From: an uncultured Porphyromonadaceae bacterium
Lineage (GTDB): Bacteria; Bacteroidota; Bacteroidia; Bacteroidales; Muribaculaceae
Reading direction: 5' to 3'
Length of the DNA: 40,841 bases
NCBI GenBank assembly: GCA_947175205.1
Contig: CAMWLS010000021.1
Coordinates: 1 to 40,841 of the forward strand
Shown here in pieces: positions 1,256-29,444 of the stretch (position 1 is the stretch's first letter; every line of letters starts with the position of its first letter). The position numbers were made by a program, and so were the translations under genes. The notes under the pieces were generated by a model that was not told the origin of the DNA, searched no databases, and was given only the letters and a program-made list of their open reading frames with translations.

Positions 1256-4200
1256 ATGAAAAGATACAACATCATTAACAACTCGTTGGGGTGGCTCTCT
1301 TTCCTGATTGCCGCCTTAACGTATCTGCTCACCATTGAGCCCACCATAAGCTTCTGGGACTGCCCTGAGTTCATTCTGCAAGGTGCCAAACTGGAAATAG
1401 GACACCCGCCGGGCAATCCCATCTTCATGCTTGCAGCCCGCTTCTGCATCACTCTTACGGGTGGTAATCTTGAAAACGCAGCCGTGGTGGTGAATTCCAT
1501 GTCTGCTCTCCTCAGCGCCGGCACCATCCTGCTGCTGTTCTGGAGCATCACACACCTTATAAAGAGGCTCCTGGTGCCTGACACACAGCAGGCCCCTGAC
1601 GCGTGGCAGATGTTGCTTATCTTTGGCGGTGGCCTCTGCGGCGCTCTGGCTTATACCTGGAGTGACACCTTCTGGTTCTCTGCCGTTGAAGGTGAGGTTT
1701 ACGCATTCTCCTCATTCTGCACCGCTCTGGTGGTGTGGCTTATGTTCAAGTGGGAGAACCGTGCTGACCGGCCGCACAGTGACCGTTATCTGATTCTGAT
1801 AGCATATATCATTGGCGTTTCCATAGCCGTTCACCTTCTTAACCTGCTGTGCATCCCTGCCCTGGGCCTGGTGTACTATTATAGAAAAACCAAGAACGCT
1901 GATGCCAAGGGCTCTCTGATAGCACTGGGTATTTCATGCATCCTGGTGGCACTTATCCTTTACGGACTTGTCCCCGGATTCATAAAAGTGGCACAGTGGT
2001 TTGAACTCGCCGCCGTAAACGGCATGGGAATGAGCTATAACACCGGTGTACTGATTTACGCCATCCTGCTGGTGGGAGTTCTCGTGGGTGCTCTGGTGGT
2101 CCTTGACCGCGCACGTAACGCCATGCTCATGAAGATAATGTTCCTCATCTCTGTGGCTCTCTCAGGCATTCTCTTCATTGGAAGCAGCACTCTGGTGGCT
2201 GTGATACTCTTTGGCGCCGTGGCGGTTTATGTACTTTTCTTCTGCCGCCCCATTCCCACTCGCTTCTTCACCCTGTGTACACTCAGTATTCTGGTGATAT
2301 TCACCGGTTATTCATCTTACGCTCTGCTGCTTATACGCTCCACCGCCGCAACACCCATGAATCAGAATGCCCCTGACAACGTCTTTGACCTCTCAGGCTA
2401 TCTGAACCGCGAGCAGTATGGCTCAGCACCTCTGCTGTACGGCCCCACCATTGCTGATGAAATTATTGAGATTTCTGATGGCGCAGGGACAACATACGTC
2501 CTCATTGATGAGGACGGCATACCCGTTACACAGCCTTTTAACGGCATCCAGTATGACAATGACGGCACAGCACTGAACATGAAAAAACGCTATGCCAAGA
2601 CCGCTAAGGCTGACCCCTCTGAACCTGACCGTTATGTACAGCAGGAAATTTCTGACGGATATGATTTCCTCCCGGAAGTAAAAAAACTCTTCCCCCGTAT
2701 ATATGAGACTCTGGACCCTATTAACGCCCGCCGTTACAAGGACTGGACTGACTACAAGAGTCCTCTGGAAGATATTCCCGCTGACGTACGCGCTGAGTGG
2801 GTACGCAACATTGCCGTCTATCCGGGCACTGATGAGCCCATTTATAATGATAAGCTGGGAGGATATTATGTGAACTCTGACATTGTGCTGCCTTATCTGG
2901 ACATGGCTCAGAGCATTGACCTCACCAAGGGACATACAGGAGCATACACATCTCTTGTTGTACCCACATCGCAGAAAGATAACCTCCAGTACTTCCTGAA
3001 TTATCAGCTGAATTTCATGTACTGGCGTTATTTCATGTGGAACTTTGCCGGACGTCAGAATGATATCCCCGGTAACGGCGAGCCCCACCTGGGCAACTGG
3101 ATTTCAGGCTTTTCAGCTATTGACAATGCCCGTCTGGGCGACCAGTCACTGCTCCCTGATGAGTTCGGCTCCGGAAACAAGGCCCATAACGTTTATTACA
3201 TGCTTCCGCTACTGCTGGGTGTGATAGGTCTGCTGTGGCAGGCACTGGCACGCCACGCCTCAGGAGAAGGGCGTGGTATAGAACAGTTCTGGGTGGTGTT
3301 CTTCCTCTTCTTCATGACAGGTATGGCCATTGTCCTGTACCTGAATCAGACCGCAGGACAGCCTCGTGAACGTGATTACGCCTTTGCCGGCTCATTCTAC
3401 GCCTTTGCCATGTGGATTGGCATGGGAGTTCCGGCCATTGCCGTCATGCTCCGCAAGCTCCTCAAGCGTTTTAAGGTTGACAGCAAGGGTGCCCACTGGG
3501 CCGTGGCAGCCGCTGCATGTGCCATTGGCCTGGCAGTGCCCGTACAGATGGTTTCTCAGACCTGGGATGACCACGACCGCAGCGGCCGCTTCACCGCCCG
3601 GGACTACGGCATGAACTACCTTTCATCCGTAGATGAGAACGGCGTCATCTTTGTTTACGGTGATAACGATACTTTCCCGCTGTGGTATCTCCAGGAAGTG
3701 GAAGGTTACCGCACAGACGTTAAGATTGTAAACCTCTCATACCTTTCCACTGACTGGTACGTCCTCTCTCTGATGCGTCCCACATATGACAGCAAGCCCC
3801 TGCCCATGTTCGGGAAGCCCAAACACTTTGGGCTGGATGAACGTCCCCGCATCTCCATTGGCCCCGCTGACAGTATTCCTGTCACCGCTCAGGTGGCGTA
3901 CACTGACTTCTATGCACATCCCGGAGACCTGTTCCGTAACGCAAACTATTACGTGCCCCTGGACTCACTCCACCTGGCACAGATGTTTGACATAAAACCC
4001 GGTCAGGTAAACTACACCCTCATGTCTGAGGGACGCCTGACTGCTGACGGCGCTATGCCTGAGCGTTTCCCCTCATTCCTTACCCCCGGCTCAACTCTTT
4101 ACCAGAACCAGTTTATAAAACAGGAAGTAGTGGCCAAGAGCGCCACTGACGGCTTTAACAGACCCGTTTACTTTGCCTGCACGGTTCCCGGTGAATACTA

Positions 4201-13586: not shown

Positions 13587-13592
13587 CATCAA

Positions 13593-13658
13593 GTTTTTCA
13601 TGGTATTAGATTTAAGGTAAGAAGATTATTCGTCGGGATGACGAGTAATTTTTTTTTG
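13593..13658 (+). ncRNA. small RNA candidate with a six-codon ORF and its own terminator
   Basis: Between a good promoter and an intrinsic terminator lies an approximately 65-nt transcript. It contains a minimal ORF at 13600-13620 encoding MVLDLR plus TAA, with only about 7 nt of leader. The 3' end is a stem TTATTCGTC (13626-13634) with GACGAGTAA (13640-13648), a GGGAT loop, and nine T. No plus-strand gene follows for 5 kb, so it is not an attenuator of an adjacent gene. The MVLDLR segment looks familiar to me from other Bacteroidales intergenic regions, but I cannot verify that here. Confidence 0.6.
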
Positions 13659-18600: not shown

Positions 18601-18725
18601 ACAGACAGTGGAAAGATTTGGCCGCTTGCAACCACTTGAAAAAATGCTAAAATAGCCCTGCCCGCGCCTGCCAACAGGTGCGTGAACAGGTATCAGGTTT
18701 TTAGCTTCGCACCGTGGTGGCCGAT
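18601..18725 (+). ncRNA. probable SAM riboswitch in the metK leader
   Basis: The leader begins with AGTGG (18607-18611), which pairs with CCACT (18632-18636) around GATTTGGCCGCTTGCAA, then AAAAATGCTAAAATAGC. GGCC...GCAACC...TGCTAA in this order is the SAM-I family core pattern. A second stem, GCGCCTG with CAGGTGC, follows near 18664-18682. GTGGT at about 18713 could pair with ACCAC (18631-18635) as a competing fold. Position upstream of SAM synthetase fits feedback control. The 3' half departs from the textbook SAM-I layout, so the exact class is uncertain. Confidence 0.62.
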
Positions 18726-25703: not shown

Positions 25704-25735
25704 TTTGGCAACTCAGAAAATTATAACTTACTTTG
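25704..25735 (+). promoter_or_regulatory. promoter candidate of the pseudoknotted RNA
   Basis: TTTG at 25704-25707 and TTACTTTG at 25728-25735, 20 bp apart; the second is one mismatch from TAnnTTTG. Transcription would begin near 25742. The preceding stretch 25540-25700 shows nothing recognisable. Confidence 0.5.
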
Positions 25736-25740
25736 CATCC

Positions 25741-26050
25741 AAACATTCTTGAGATACGGCAAAATGTATCTCTGCTACATAATAAAGCGTTCTTGACGCT
25801 TGGTTCTTACCGGACAGAAACTTCGCAACTTTCAATGTTAAGCCAAGAACTGAGCAACAGAGGATGCCCAACCCAGTGTATATGATATACACGCATTCCC
25901 CCGCCCTATGGCGGGGGGAATTGTGCGCATAGTATCTCATAATATACATTAGCGTGGGCCTTCCATCTGTTGACAGTTTCGGCTTAATGGGCAATGCGAA
26001 GGCCTCAGTCTGGTGAAACTGTCAGCAGTCAGGGATTCCCGCGCTTTTTC
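25741..26050 (+). ncRNA. approximately 310-nt structured RNA candidate with a 3' pseudoknot
   Basis: Hairpins in order: GAGATAC/GTATCTC (25751-25772), AAGCGT-TCTTG-ACGCTT (25785-25801), GTGTATAT/ATATACAC (25876-25892) and a G/C-rich ATTCCCCCGCC with GGCGGGGGGAAT (25895-25921). The 3' domain is closed by AGCGTG (25951-25956) with CGCGCT (26040-26045). Inside it GGCCTTC (25957-25963) pairs with GAAGGCC (25998-26004), crossing CTGTTGACAGTTTC (25967-25980) paired with GAAACTGTCAGCAG (26015-26028), which is a pseudoknot. A T-run follows. An 88-codon frame on the opposite strand is best seen as a shadow. Confidence 0.6.
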
Positions 26051-26123
26051 TTTATCTTAATTTCACTCTCAGGGGAATCAGAGTGCTGCAATCTTACACA
26101 TTAATAAAACAGACTATCACACG

Positions 26124-26348
26124 ATGAAAGCACTGGGAGAAATCATCCGCGACGAGCTCAGAGAACAGGAGCGCCCTATAACCTGGTTTGCACGCAAGTT
26201 ATGCCTTGACCGGTCAAACGTTTACCGTTTATTTCAGAAAAACAGTATAGACACAGACTTACTGATGCGTATTTCCCGTGTCCTAAACCGCGATTTCTTT
26301 GCACTTCTAAGTCAGGAATTAGCCAGTAAGCAAAGAACGCAACAGTAA
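26124..26348 (+). CDS. small HTH (XRE-like) protein
   Basis: 74 residues, nearly all one helix-turn-helix domain: ITWFARKLCLDRSNVYRLFQKNSIDTDLLMRISRVL reads as a Cro/C1-type HTH with an N-terminal amphipathic helix MKALGEIIRDELREQE. No second domain is present, so it may act as a dimeric DNA-binding protein. Its targets are unknown. It starts about 75 bp after the structured RNA, with no clear promoter of its own, so RNA and gene might be linked. The gap contains a small CACTCT/AGAGTG hairpin near 26065. Confidence 0.78.
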   Translation: MKALGEIIRDELREQERPITWFARKLCLDRSNVYRLFQKNSIDTDLLMRISRVLNRDFFALLSQELASKQRTQQ

Positions 26349-26567: not shown

Positions 26568-29444
26568 ATGAACAAAAGATTTTTGAGCATTGCACTTCTG
26601 ACTGCTATCTGTACTGCTGTACCGGTGGCATTCACATCGTGCTCAGATTACGATGACGACATCAACAATCTGCAGTCACAGATTGACGCCATCAACTCTA
26701 CTGTTGCCGATCTTCAGAAGCTTGTAGCTGAAGGAGTAATCATAACATCTGTAGAGAAGACAGCTGATGGCATCATTGTCAAGACCTCAACAGGCGAGAC
26801 CTTTAACATCATCAACGGAAAAGACGGCGCTGCCGGCAAGGACGCTGATGTATGGACCATAGGTTCAGACGGTTACTGGTACAAGAACAATGAGAAGACC
26901 GCTTATCGCGCGGTGGGTGAAACCGGTCCCCAGGGTCCTCAGGGCGAGACAGGTGCCACAGGCCCCCAGGGTCCTCAGGGCGAGACGGGTGCCACAGGTG
27001 CTCAGGGTCCTCAGGGTGAAACGGGTGCTACCGGTAACTTCTACCGTCCCAACATTGAGACCGGATGTTTTGAAATCTGTGACTCAGAGGGTAACGTTCT
27101 GGAGCAAACAAACATCCCCTACACTGCAGCCGGCGGTAATATGTCAGCGGTATATACCGGTAACAAGATTATCTTCACCGGCGTAAGCGGTGCAGAAGGT
27201 CCAGTAGAAATCCTTGTGGGTACTCCCGTAGGCAGTCTGGTATTCATTCCCAGTGTAATGAGCTCTACTCTGCCTTATCCTACAACTGACGAGCCTTTCT
27301 ACTATCTGGCTTCTTATCTTGATGAGACCAAGTATAATCCTCAGACCAAGAAGTTTGATCCTCAGTTATGGAACAAGTCAAACGAGGTTACACTGGAATA
27401 CCGCATCAACCCCAAAGAAGCATACGTTGTTGAGAATCCCATTGTAGGCTTCATCAACCGTAACATGACTTCACGCGCAGCCGGAGACAAATCTAACCTT
27501 CTTAACATGGTATCAGCTCAGGCAGCAGCCGGTGAACTTAATGTTAACGCTACTCTGAACCCAATAGGTATGGGCAGCAATAATATTGTTACCGCACGTC
27601 TGCAGAACGGTCAGGATATAGTAACTTCTTCAGACTATATTGCAATAAACGCTTCTGCGGTAAAGGCTCGCATCTACAACAAGCTTGCTTCAGCAAAGCC
27701 CACTTACTTCTACGACCGTGATCAGGCAATAGTAAGCAAGGACAGCGAAACCAGCGATTTCATCAAGCAGTTTGTATCTCTGTCAGACGCTCCCAATGTA
27801 ACCTGCGTATACAATGAATCTTTAGACCTTCAGGCATACGTTGACCTGTGGTGTACTACAGAAAACACACCTCTGTCTGATCTGAACTTCTACGGTGCAA
27901 ACTACAAGTTCTCACTGCCCGCATCATATCTTTCTGATGACGCACAGAAGACTAACCAGCAGTGGTTTGCCGTTCTTAACGGAAGCACCATCAGCGTAAA
28001 CCGCACCAATGTACCTGACCTTACTCCGGCAATCGGCCGTACACCTGTTGTACGTGTGGACGCTTACATGCCTGACAACAACGGCACAGAGCAGATGGTG
28101 GCATCAGCCTACATCAAGGTACAGTTTGACCGCAAGGCTTCTACACCCACTGATGACCGTGATGTCCTGACCATCAACATGGATCCCAAGAGCTTCAACT
28201 ATTCTGCACTTACTTCTAACCTCTCACTGATAGGTCAGATGACATGGCAGAATGTAAACAATCAGATTTACGGTTCACAGCAGCTTTCTGTGGATAACTT
28301 CTGGAGCAACTACAAGCACAACTACTCAGTAGTGGTTTCAGCTACTCCCAAGAGCACAAGCACTCCTGTTGTACTGAACCCCACTGATCAGACTGCAACA
28401 GTGAACACTCCGTTCAGCCCCGCATCTCTGGCATCTAACGGTATTTCTGTAAACGTACTGCTGACTAACTCCAGCACTCAGACTTCAGACATAACCTTCA
28501 AGGTTAACAATCTGGCCAAGACTGACGAGACATATGTTGACGGCAAGTACACCATCAAGATTACTCTGACTCCGAATAATCCCAAGGTATACCAGCCCAT
28601 TGAGATTATCCAGGTATTCTACGTGAAGAATGACTTCCAGCCCTACACCTTCAACCCCGTATTCTATAACTCATCAACCGGTTATGTACAGGCTAAGGGT
28701 GAGCCCACAGCAAGCGGCTACTCAATGCAGATGAACATTGCTCAGGCATTTGAAGGTATCAACGGTAAGGACATCTTCCAGTACTACTGTGATCGCTCAG
28801 CAAACATCAAGTTCGGTAACGTAGCAAGCAATCCTGTAATAGCCTTCGGCTTCAGCGGTAACCACGCAGGTGTGGCTTACGGTGCTCCCGATTTCGCCGA
28901 CCACTATGTAGGTCTGACCTCAGCTCTGACTGCTGACTCTAAGCGTGTAACCATGAACTACACCATCAAGCTTGTGAACGGTGAAGTTATCAGCAATCCC
29001 TTCGGTGTTGAGTTCATCAATCCATTCATTGCCGGTGCAGGCAAGACTGTTACCGTGGACGCTTCTGAGCCCGGAACTTACACCAAGTCAGCTAAGCCCA
29101 GTGTTCTGGTTAACGAGCGCAACTCAAACAACGTAATCTACAGCTGGGATGCCTCAGCCAAGAATCTGGTACTGTCATCACGCGCAACAAGCTGGTTCAA
29201 GCTCAAACCCTCACAGGTAATCGTGACGTATGAATGGGATACCACTACTTCTGAATACAAGGAATTCATGAATAATGTAAATGTAGGTAGCAGCAGCCTG
29301 TCTAACCCCGATGCTGACGGTACATTCACATTCTTCACCACCGCTAACCTTGTAAGGAACTACCAGCTGAACATCAAGGCTACTGTAACCTTTGAGAACC
29401 TGTCACAGGTTGTAGTCAACATCCCTGTTCAGTTCAATAAATAA
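26568..29444 (+). CDS. large surface lipoprotein with collagen-like segment (DUF4988-like N-terminus)
   Basis: 958 residues. A signal peptide ends in lipobox FTSC (about C25), followed by a coiled coil (about 28-55, DINNLQSQIDAINSTVADLQKL), then a small domain with INGKDGAAGKDADVWTIG and GYWYKNNEKT, the pattern seen in DUF4988/PL29 N-terminal proteins of Bacteroidales. Residues 117-156 are uninterrupted Gly-X-Y triplets based on GPQGPQGETGAT. The remaining 800 residues look like beta-rich surface domains (Thr, Ser, Asn-rich) without a recognised enzyme motif. Codon use is strongly biased, suggesting high expression. A promoter with a long leader precedes it and a terminator follows. An export or adhesion role is inference. 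Confidence 0.85.
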   Translation: MNKRFLSIALLTAICTAVPVAFTSCSDYDDDINNLQSQIDAINSTVADLQKLVAEGVIITSVEKTADGIIVKTSTGETFNIINGKDGAAGKDADVWTIGSDGYWYKNNEKTAYRAVGETGPQGPQGETGATGPQGPQGETGATGAQGPQGETGATGNFYRPNIETGCFEICDSEGNVLEQTNIPYTAAGGNMSAVYTGNKIIFTGVSGAEGPVEILVGTPVGSLVFIPSVMSSTLPYPTTDEPFYYLASYLDETKYNPQTKKFDPQLWNKSNEVTLEYRINPKEAYVVENPIVGFINRNMTSRAAGDKSNLLNMVSAQAAAGELNVNATLNPIGMGSNNIVTARLQNGQDIVTSSDYIAINASAVKARIYNKLASAKPTYFYDRDQAIVSKDSETSDFIKQFVSLSDAPNVTCVYNESLDLQAYVDLWCTTENTPLSDLNFYGANYKFSLPASYLSDDAQKTNQQWFAVLNGSTISVNRTNVPDLTPAIGRTPVVRVDAYMPDNNGTEQMVASAYIKVQFDRKASTPTDDRDVLTINMDPKSFNYSALTSNLSLIGQMTWQNVNNQIYGSQQLSVDNFWSNYKHNYSVVVSATPKSTSTPVVLNPTDQTATVNTPFSPASLASNGISVNVLLTNSSTQTSDITFKVNNLAKTDETYVDGKYTIKITLTPNNPKVYQPIEIIQVFYVKNDFQPYTFNPVFYNSSTGYVQAKGEPTASGYSMQMNIAQAFEGINGKDIFQYYCDRSANIKFGNVASNPVIAFGFSGNHAGVAYGAPDFADHYVGLTSALTADSKRVTMNYTIKLVNGEVISNPFGVEFINPFIAGAGKTVTVDASEPGTYTKSAKPSVLVNERNSNNVIYSWDASAKNLVLSSRATSWFKLKPSQVIVTYEWDTTTSEYKEFMNNVNVGSSSLSNPDADGTFTFFTTANLVRNYQLNIKATVTFENLSQVVVNIPVQFNK
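26916..27035 (+). repeat. collagen-like 36-bp tandem repeat (Gly-X-Y)
   Basis: About three copies of a 36-bp unit encode GPQGPQGETGAT or close variants, residues 117-156 of the lipoprotein. Reading frame and Gly periodicity are kept throughout. Confidence 0.93.

Follow-up and report, generated by a model that had tools for sequence, protein, structure and literature searches.

Within the window, meaning the whole stretch of 40,841 nucleotides of contig CAMWLS010000021.1 from an uncultured Porphyromonadaceae bacterium, the element under study is the structured front end (5' leader) of an mRNA on the + strand and is not a protein gene. As read from the sequence, it is a compact RNA of approximately 310 nt that extends from a promoter-like box at 25728-25735 to a T-run at 26045-26053. 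It is most likely a 5' leader that acts in cis and carries a terminator of its own, rather than a free-standing non-coding RNA, and its best reading, to which a probability of about 0.75 was assigned, is a riboswitch-like transcription attenuator with two predicted alternative folds. Comparison of sequences among the copies supports the position in cis, the T-run, the preference of strands for their own partners in both folds, and the overlap of the folds.

Structure of the element

The 310-nt RNA had a minimum free energy (MFE) of -126.3 kcal/mol, compared with -82.0 (sd 5.1) for 100 shuffles (z -8.7, no shuffle as good), and its folding is therefore beyond chance. The MFE fold was a long rod formed by pairing of the 5' third with the 3' third. 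In the terminator helices of 60 copies, G-U pairs numbered 143 and the mirror-image A-C cells 1, an asymmetry that indicates an RNA on the + strand. The first-pass annotation of this DNA had proposed a widely repeated RNA candidate of approximately 310 nt behind a promoter-like element (the box TTACTTTG, upstream of the RNA), with no protein function to explain the locus, and these proposals held. It had drawn the candidate as a stand-alone pseudoknot RNA with crossing 14-bp and 7-bp helices; the locus is instead one copy of a dispersed family of leader RNAs with a terminator, and both helices were absent from the MFE fold. The parts of the window copy are as follows.

25728..25735 (+): promoter-like box TTACTTTG, with one mismatch to TAnnTTTG, the Bacteroidota promoter box
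25785..25801 (+): hairpin H1, AAGCG-TTCTTGA-CGCTT, from the inverted-repeat listing, where it is seen from the - strand
25802-25808 with 25845-25851 (+): Pa, stem of the local 5' hairpin in the hairpin fold, from the best-register computation
25807-25815 (TTACCGGAC) with 26008-26016 (GTCTGGTGA) (+): Pb2, rod fold, from the MFE fold
25817-25820 (GAAA) and 26002-26006 (GCCTC) (+): segments adjoining Pb1
25821-25827 (CTTCGCA) with 25995-26001 (TGCGAAG) (+): Pb1, the core word, from the MFE fold
25838-25844 (TTAAGCC) with 25981-25987 (GGCTTAA) (+): Pc, rod fold, from the MFE fold
25855-25870 with 25955-25972 (+): Pd, putative antiterminator pairing with the 5' half of the terminator, from the MFE fold
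25875..25950 (+): variable apical hairpin, from the MFE fold, with a sequence that differs between copies
25952-25959 (AGCGTGGG) with 26038-26045 (CCCGCGCT) (+): Pf, closing stem, followed by TTTTTCTTT
25967..26028 (+): Pe, upper terminator stem, from covariation; this is the 14-bp helix of the first-pass annotation, with strands CTGTTGACAGTTTC (25967-25980) and GAAACTGTCAGCAG (26015-26028)
26045-26053 (+): T-run of the predicted intrinsic terminator, spanning 25952..26053 together with Pf
26064..26085 (+): hairpin 3' of the T-run, CACTCT-CAGGGGAATC-AGAGTG
26073-26079 (GGGAATC) with 26034-26040 (GATTCCC) (+): Ph, contact between the loop of that hairpin and the complementary terminator segment
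26124..26348 (+): first gene behind the leader, a small HTH-like protein of 74 aa, from the ORF list
26568..29444 (+): second gene, a lipoprotein-like protein (by eye) with DUF4988 and collagen-like repeats

Copies of the element and their distribution

A nucleotide search returned matches in 17 of 49 genomes of the genus (own genome included), which consisted of two conserved blocks with a variable middle, and a pattern assembled from parts of the two blocks was found in at least 115 stretches among public genome contigs. Among the 80 matches listed, all titles read as Bacteroidales (Candidatus Liminaster after a look-up) except that of one uncultured Lachnospiraceae bin (L065), which is possibly misbinned. 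Cultured carriers include Bacteroides clarus YIT 12056 and Xylanibacter rarus (copies L044 and L047). The order searched subsequently was taken to be Bacteroidales on the basis of these titles. With a covariance model of the 3' part (R1, built from 60 copies), a kind of search that the first-pass annotation had proposed, 81 of the 392 genomes searched in the order (own genome included) and 42 of 204 genera had matches at E <= 0.001, with up to at least nine matches per genome, nine being the number scored. The genome of the window contained eight copies at E < 0.001, and the same eight were recovered with a second model (R2) that had been trained on seven of them and on five loci from another order. 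A ninth copy (C4:3405-3501, E 0.024) was confirmed on visual inspection of its helices and of the lipoprotein-like gene that follows. The collection of copies comprised 146 rows, from which L146 was removed to leave 145 (139 distinct); four ran off their contigs, and the remaining 141 were reduced to 132 without near-duplicates. Of these 132, 60 made up one alignment, and a further sequence set, A3, contained 22 sequences.

Outside the order, a draw of 296 genomes from the phylum, searched using R1 with strict filters, gave the own genome and one other (L155, E 0.004). A draw of 40 genomes from the class gave the own genome together with L185 and L186, both of which were judged false. In the genus to which L155 belongs, 41 genomes were searched and 6 had matches at E <= 0.05; the architecture is kept at five of these six loci (L155, L217, L219, L220, and L221); L218, which is coding, was dropped as a false match, as was L235. 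In the family of L155, R2 gave 10 matches at E <= 0.01, spread over 6 of 41 genomes; one was L155 itself, and the other nine were new loci that keep the architecture. The T-run was present in all 14 other-order copies, and the span from Pb2 to the T-run was 126-148 nt in these as against 191-234 nt in the 132 copies. Compact relatives occur in another order.

Pb1 read CUUCGCA/UGCGAAG in 151 of the 168 copies tallied, most of which had been found by that very word, and in 22 of the 37 loci found by covariance model. Different complementary words occupied the same place in L016, L149, L150, L153, L154, L155, L181, L219, and L233, for example CTTAGGA/TCCTAAG (L016), TCTGGCA/TGCCAGA (L150), GTACCA/TGGTAC (L153), ATCGCCA/TGGCGAT (L154), and CCTGGAA/TTCCAGG (L181), and six different core words were present among the nine copies of the genome of the window. 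Automatic picks of the core word were off or empty in L151, L153, L155, L157, L169, L178, L179, L182, and L184, and the words of L153 and L155 were read from the sequences instead. The flanks of Pb1 were near-constant, reading (G)AAA next to its 5' strand and CCU(C) next to its 3' strand; departures were seen in L149 (GGAA), L233 (GCCAC), and L244 (GGCTTC).

Terminator helices

Covariation was assessed in an alignment of 60 of the 132 dereplicated homologs. Ten of the pairs of Pe and seven pairs of Pf were formed in 97.9% of cells (97.6% for Pe alone and 98.3% for Pf alone), two-sided changes occurred in 14 of the 17 pairs, and none of 500 shuffles reached any of the five measures used. When the helices were slid out of register, the fraction of paired cells fell to 43-53%. 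Pe was also paired in 98.2% of cells in the whole-core alignment (90.5% shuffled). The corresponding figure for Pf in this gap-rich alignment (60.7% versus 58.5% shuffled, 326 cells) showed no excess and was taken as misalignment, given the 98.3% obtained from the separate alignment of 60 copies. An alignment-free comparison, in which the pairing of a strand with its own partner is set against its pairing with the same strand of other copies, gave -17.6 versus -14.1 kcal/mol for Pe and -12.5 versus -10.7 kcal/mol for Pf (132 copies). A T-run followed the element in 130 of 132 copies, and the G+C-rich stem with the T-run behind it has the form of an intrinsic terminator. A simple inverted-repeat scanner of the window did not list it because its loop is longer than 8.

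The long helix and the closing stem of the first-pass annotation are thus both accounted for: the strings of the 14-bp helix are present, covary, and belong to the terminator, and the closing stem is present as 25952-25959/26038-26045 with seven covarying pairs. The 7-bp helix that was said to cross the long one is present as strings (GGCCTTC at 25957-25963 and GAAGGCC at 25998-26004) but does not covary, being paired in 79.3% of cells in the whole-core alignment and in 79.3% of the shuffles, with no two-sided change. Compensatory changes, which had been suggested as support for both crossing helices, therefore occur in the 14-bp helix and not in the 7-bp one. The own-partner score of the latter (-6.24 versus -6.02 foreign) is uninformative since one strand hardly varies, and the helix rivals a better-supported one that uses the same GCGAAG. 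The H-type pseudoknot as drawn was rejected for want of compensatory changes in GGCCTTC/GAAGGCC, and the suggested second pseudoknot, TCTTG with CAAGA, was paired in 56.4% of cells against 56.2% when shuffled. The antisense frame of 88 codons fared no better, as an open minus frame was kept in 25 of 132 copies and an open plus frame in 23 of 132, with approximately three stops per frame on average, and an antisense protein-coding gene was rejected.

Rod helices and overlap of the two folds

The same comparison was applied to the helices of the rod and the 5' hairpin in the 132 copies, together with percentages of paired cells from the whole-core alignment. Pb2 scored -7.05 kcal/mol with its own partner and -2.43 with foreign ones (91.4% paired versus 50.7% shuffled), and Pc scored -9.42 and -3.32 (65.4% versus 42.9%). 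For Pa the values were -11.4 and -7.5, with a moderate excess in the alignment (71.5% versus 64.6%). Pd scored -22.6 versus -18.7, and -26.8 versus -19.1 in 20 divergent copies, but its conserved block GCAAC/GTTGC had little excess covariation (97.1% versus 95.8%). The hairpin H1, with AGCGT/ACGCT paired in 96.2% of cells against 92.7% and no preference for its own partner (-3.63 versus -3.42), is weakly supported. The 20 divergent copies (14 from the other order and six from the own genome) were anchored by hand on their core words, so that in these only the neighbors of Pb1 were assessed. The own partner was the best of 20 for Pb2 in 19 copies, for Pc in 13 (among the best three in 19), for Pd in 10, for Pe/Pf in seven, and for Pa in four.

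The best registers of Pa and Pb2 shared nucleotides in 115 of 132 copies and those of Pd and Pe in 119 of 132, both counted without a control. In the window, Pd at 25966-25972 directly overlaps Pe at 25967-25980. Given these overlaps, an RNA that completes the rod helices Pb2, Pb1, Pc, and Pd cannot at the same time complete the hairpins Pa, Pe, and Pf. An antiterminator in competition with the terminator is accordingly what the overlap in the window, the shared registers, and the own-partner preference point to, with little excess in the conserved block.

The closest rival to this reading is one compact fold in which all helices form together as far as shared nucleotides allow and the loops of the Pa and Pe hairpins make kissing contacts by way of Pb2, Pb1, and Pc. 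The RNA would then be a static, perhaps protein-bound, element with an embedded terminator and no two-state switch. Both sets of helices do have comparative support in the same copies, and a loop-loop contact of this kind is topologically possible. We nevertheless regard it as unlikely, since the overlaps of Pa with Pb2 and of Pd with Pe, seen in most copies, keep one fold from holding all pairs at once, and since closing both loops over so long a helix looks strained, which is an argument and not a computed result.

With regard to the two-fold attenuator, further relations between competing strands were considered. The likeness between the 5' strand of Pd and the 3' strand of the terminator was weak (5.67 own, 5.40 foreign, and 5.07 shuffled; 132 copies). 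In several copies of the other order, the competing antiterminator and terminator strands repeat one word, GATAAG occurring twice in L155 and L217 and ATAGATAGG/ATAAATAAGG in L221. A leader word, GCAGAAGCC, can pair with GGCTTCTGC of the terminator in many copies (own -20.1, foreign -17.3, with 40 of 132 beating 90% of foreign partners); no word of this type was seen on reading the leader of the window.

Position in front of genes

The downstream ORF was on the same strand in 118 of the 125 copies with a called ORF (out of 139 distinct copies), and the orientation of the upstream gene was near random (71 + and 57 -). The start codon, taken from the longest ORF with its start within 420 nt, lay a median of 80 nt past the T-run (quartiles 67-177; 117 copies), with the position of the T-run set at the anchor plus 52. 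Of the 132 copies, 121 had an exact TAnnTTTG at 45-170 nt upstream of the core anchor, against 10 of 122 for an equally long control stretch, and a promoter box between the T-run and the gene was found in only 3 of 132.

Many copies have a hairpin 5-60 nt behind the T-run, with stems identified by eye, the loop of which complements the 3' strand of the terminator. This contact, Ph, scored -11.3 kcal/mol with its own partner and -8.9 with foreign ones, and 41 of 130 copies beat 90% of foreign partners (approximately 13 expected); the next 55 nt gave no such excess (12 of 130). Ph can form only in read-through RNA, and its effect there may be on translation or to lock the open state.

An independent, trans-acting small RNA whose end is the T-run, with the downstream gene reached by leaky read-through, would have the promoter-like box and T-run that are observed, and the pairing of the terminator 3' strand with the loop of an mRNA hairpin in Ph is what a seed might do. 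The orientation of the downstream gene, its spacing, and the second box in only 3 of 132 copies fit a leader instead, and we hold the trans-acting alternative to be somewhat less probable again than the single compact fold. It is partly compatible with an attenuator, as a leader released by termination could have a trans activity too, and the odds given to the various readings are in part non-exclusive and need not sum to one. A mobile repeat or recombination site acting at the level of DNA would be dispersed and multicopy with partly inverted arms, as the element is, and the tRNA-Ser next to the window copy is unique in comparison with 29 other loci of the genus, some cut by contig ends, but the 143 G-U pairs to one A-C cell, the promoter box, the T-run, the gene orientation, and the scan of 2.9 million viral contigs, with a single pattern match (L146) that by eye lacked the other features, make this highly improbable. 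On the outcome of that scan of viral contigs, a viral origin was also rejected. The tRNA-Ser, present only in the locus of the window among the 30 fetched, carries little weight on the question of a mobile island at tRNA-Ser, as several of these are cut by contig ends; the malic-enzyme gene (Pfam) upstream occurs in 45 of the 48 genomes compared within the genus, the own genome among them.

By eye, many of the downstream proteins have N termini like those of secreted proteins or lipoproteins. Family searches were performed on 104 of the 117 called downstream ORFs, 13 being omitted as spurious-looking. Among the best 25 of 80 Pfam families, BspA-type leucine-rich repeats were commonest (12), followed by DUF4988, PEGA, and CarboxypepD-like domains (four each) and LytTR and collagen (two each). 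NCBIfam added adhesin models (among the best 25 of 78 families), and PADLOC gave a few single matches (among the best 25 of 56). No shared pathway was seen among these best 25 families from Pfam, PADLOC, and NCBIfam, and an anti-phage reading was rejected since only a few single defense-like proteins were present.

For the window, Pfam identified the second gene as DUF4988/collagen-like and matched the first to HTH_3 at E 0.003, below the cut-off. HTH-like proteins of 72-93 aa, alike by eye, lie directly behind the leader in L045, L070, L121, and the window (26124-26348). A HaeIII-type restriction enzyme lies behind the leader in L021 (299-1261, - strand), where the next frame is methyltransferase-like by eye, and a UvrD-like helicase does so in L063. 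The downstream proteins of L147, L150, and L095 (the first two translated by eye) start with a P-loop-like motif, a putative assignment. In the other order, a lipoprotein-like protein with collagen-like repeats (by eye) lies behind the leader of L219, and short proteins of 79-122 aa, alike by eye, follow L239, L243, L245, and L246 in one genome.

Proposed mechanism and energetics

In the rod fold, the 5' domain would pair with the 3' domain through Pb2, Pb1, and Pc, and Pd would hold the 5' half of the terminator, so that RNA polymerase would continue transcribing through to the gene. In the hairpin fold, Pa would close the 5' domain on itself and Pe and Pf would form the terminator, with a stop at 26045-26053. 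The gene would be turned off when Pa is stabilized or the 5' strands are kept from pairing, and on when the rod is favored; in the simplest version, read-through would be the default and a signal or kinetic effect that keeps Pa would let the terminator form. Termination, the interconversion of the folds in the cell, and a signal (small molecule, protein, or RNA) that chooses the fold, as well as its sign, are what we infer here, and the reverse sign of the switch is possible.

Using nested folding only, the rod was favored by approximately 18 kcal/mol over purely local folds. Pb1 was present in 104 of 132 full-length MFE folds (28 were without it) and Pe or Pf in none of the 132, while the two terminator helices appeared together in 79 of 132 copies when the 3' half was folded by itself. 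The rod was favored even before the 3' strand of the terminator had been made (Pb1 in 107 of 132). Given this lead in energy, read-through would be the default, and the off state would need help or kinetics. Several results count against an attenuator, namely the full-length MFE folds without Pe or Pf, the little excess for the Pd block, the moderate excess for Pa, and the lack of any for Pf in the whole-core alignment, as do the weak likeness between the 5' strand of Pd and the 3' strand of the terminator, downstream genes without a metabolic theme, and the lack of an evident place for Ph in the scheme.

A wider proposal, which we consider possible but put forward only tentatively, is that the leader represents a new class of RNA sensor in Bacteroidia. 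Such two-state leaders would read one shared cellular or host signal through the GAAA/CCU(C) internal loop and would jointly switch surface adhesins, lipoproteins, small regulators, and some defense genes in many copies per genome, with the covarying helices preventing cross-pairing between copies. The leader occurs in approximately one fifth of the sampled genomes of the order (81 of 392), often in several copies and at times before adhesin-like or lipoprotein-like genes, and would open a regulatory layer in the choice of surface by gut bacteria. The covariation points to precise mutations, and the conserved internal loop offers a defined place for a ligand or protein. Compared with Firmicutes or Proteobacteria, Bacteroidota have, to our knowledge, few recognized regulatory RNAs.

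Relation to known RNA families

No Rfam 15 family reached its cut-off in the locus of the window, where the only matches up to E 10 were two on the minus strand (E 4.6 and 8.8) with scores far short of the cut-off, and no gathering score was reached inside the element in 41 further loci (20 + 11 + 10). Matches inside elements were at chance level, such as mir-92 in L021 (21.7 of 47 bits) and Phe_leader in L244 (28.4 of 55). Transcription-attenuating riboswitches consist of a 5' leader with a large conserved fold, an intrinsic terminator, and an antiterminator that sequesters the 5' half of the terminator. The leader described here has in common with them its position, large fold, terminator, and putative antiterminator strand, but differs in its length of approximately 310 nt and its one long-range rod with no separate aptamer and expression platform, in downstream genes without a common pathway, and in a ligand that is only putative. 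6S RNA is likewise rod-shaped, but acts in trans by binding RNA polymerase, whereas the leader is multicopy and lies in cis with a gene behind it; no 6S family was among the Rfam matches of the window and the 41 loci.

The Bacteroidales-1 family (RF01693), which the first-pass annotation had named as the first to be checked, did not match the window up to E 10 or the 41 further loci at E up to 1 or 2. Bacteroidales-1 is listed as a structured RNA of Bacteroidales (PMC2864571), which is the likeness to the leader; the difference is that the leader is unmatched by its model. Flavo-1 (RF01705) is reported to be a computed motif that is widespread in Flavobacteriaceae, with several instances in 5' regions and matches in sense and antisense alike (PMC9723704); the leader differs from that description in its fixed orientation, and none of the 14 other-order copies matches Flavo-1. 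A set of 3161 candidates of 27-219 bp is reported in another study (PMC8040213), and fragments of the leader RNA may be among them. No paper that contains the conserved strings or names the leader RNA was found in the literature covered, a scope outside which subscription papers, preprints, and supplements fall; the firm claim is accordingly that the leader is unlisted in Rfam 15, and that it is wholly undescribed is not claimed firmly.

Other structured RNAs were noted in the course of these comparisons. The window itself contains a FopS RNA (RF04319, a Bacteroidetes family of paralogous sRNAs) at 13591-13658 (+) and a SAM-II long-loop riboswitch (RF01726) at 18602-18660 (+); FopS had no match at gathering score inside the elements of the window and the 41 loci. 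Among those loci, gathering scores were reached outside the elements only, by a Bacteroidales small SRP RNA (RF04183) at 2460-2566 (+) of L017, in the same 2.7-kb locus as the leader copy, and by a DUF805b RNA (RF02914, 48.8 bits, E 3.6e-11) at 1622-1656 (+) of L244. The latter lies between the T-run and the gene, so that this other-order copy has two putative cis RNAs in tandem, the leader and then DUF805b.
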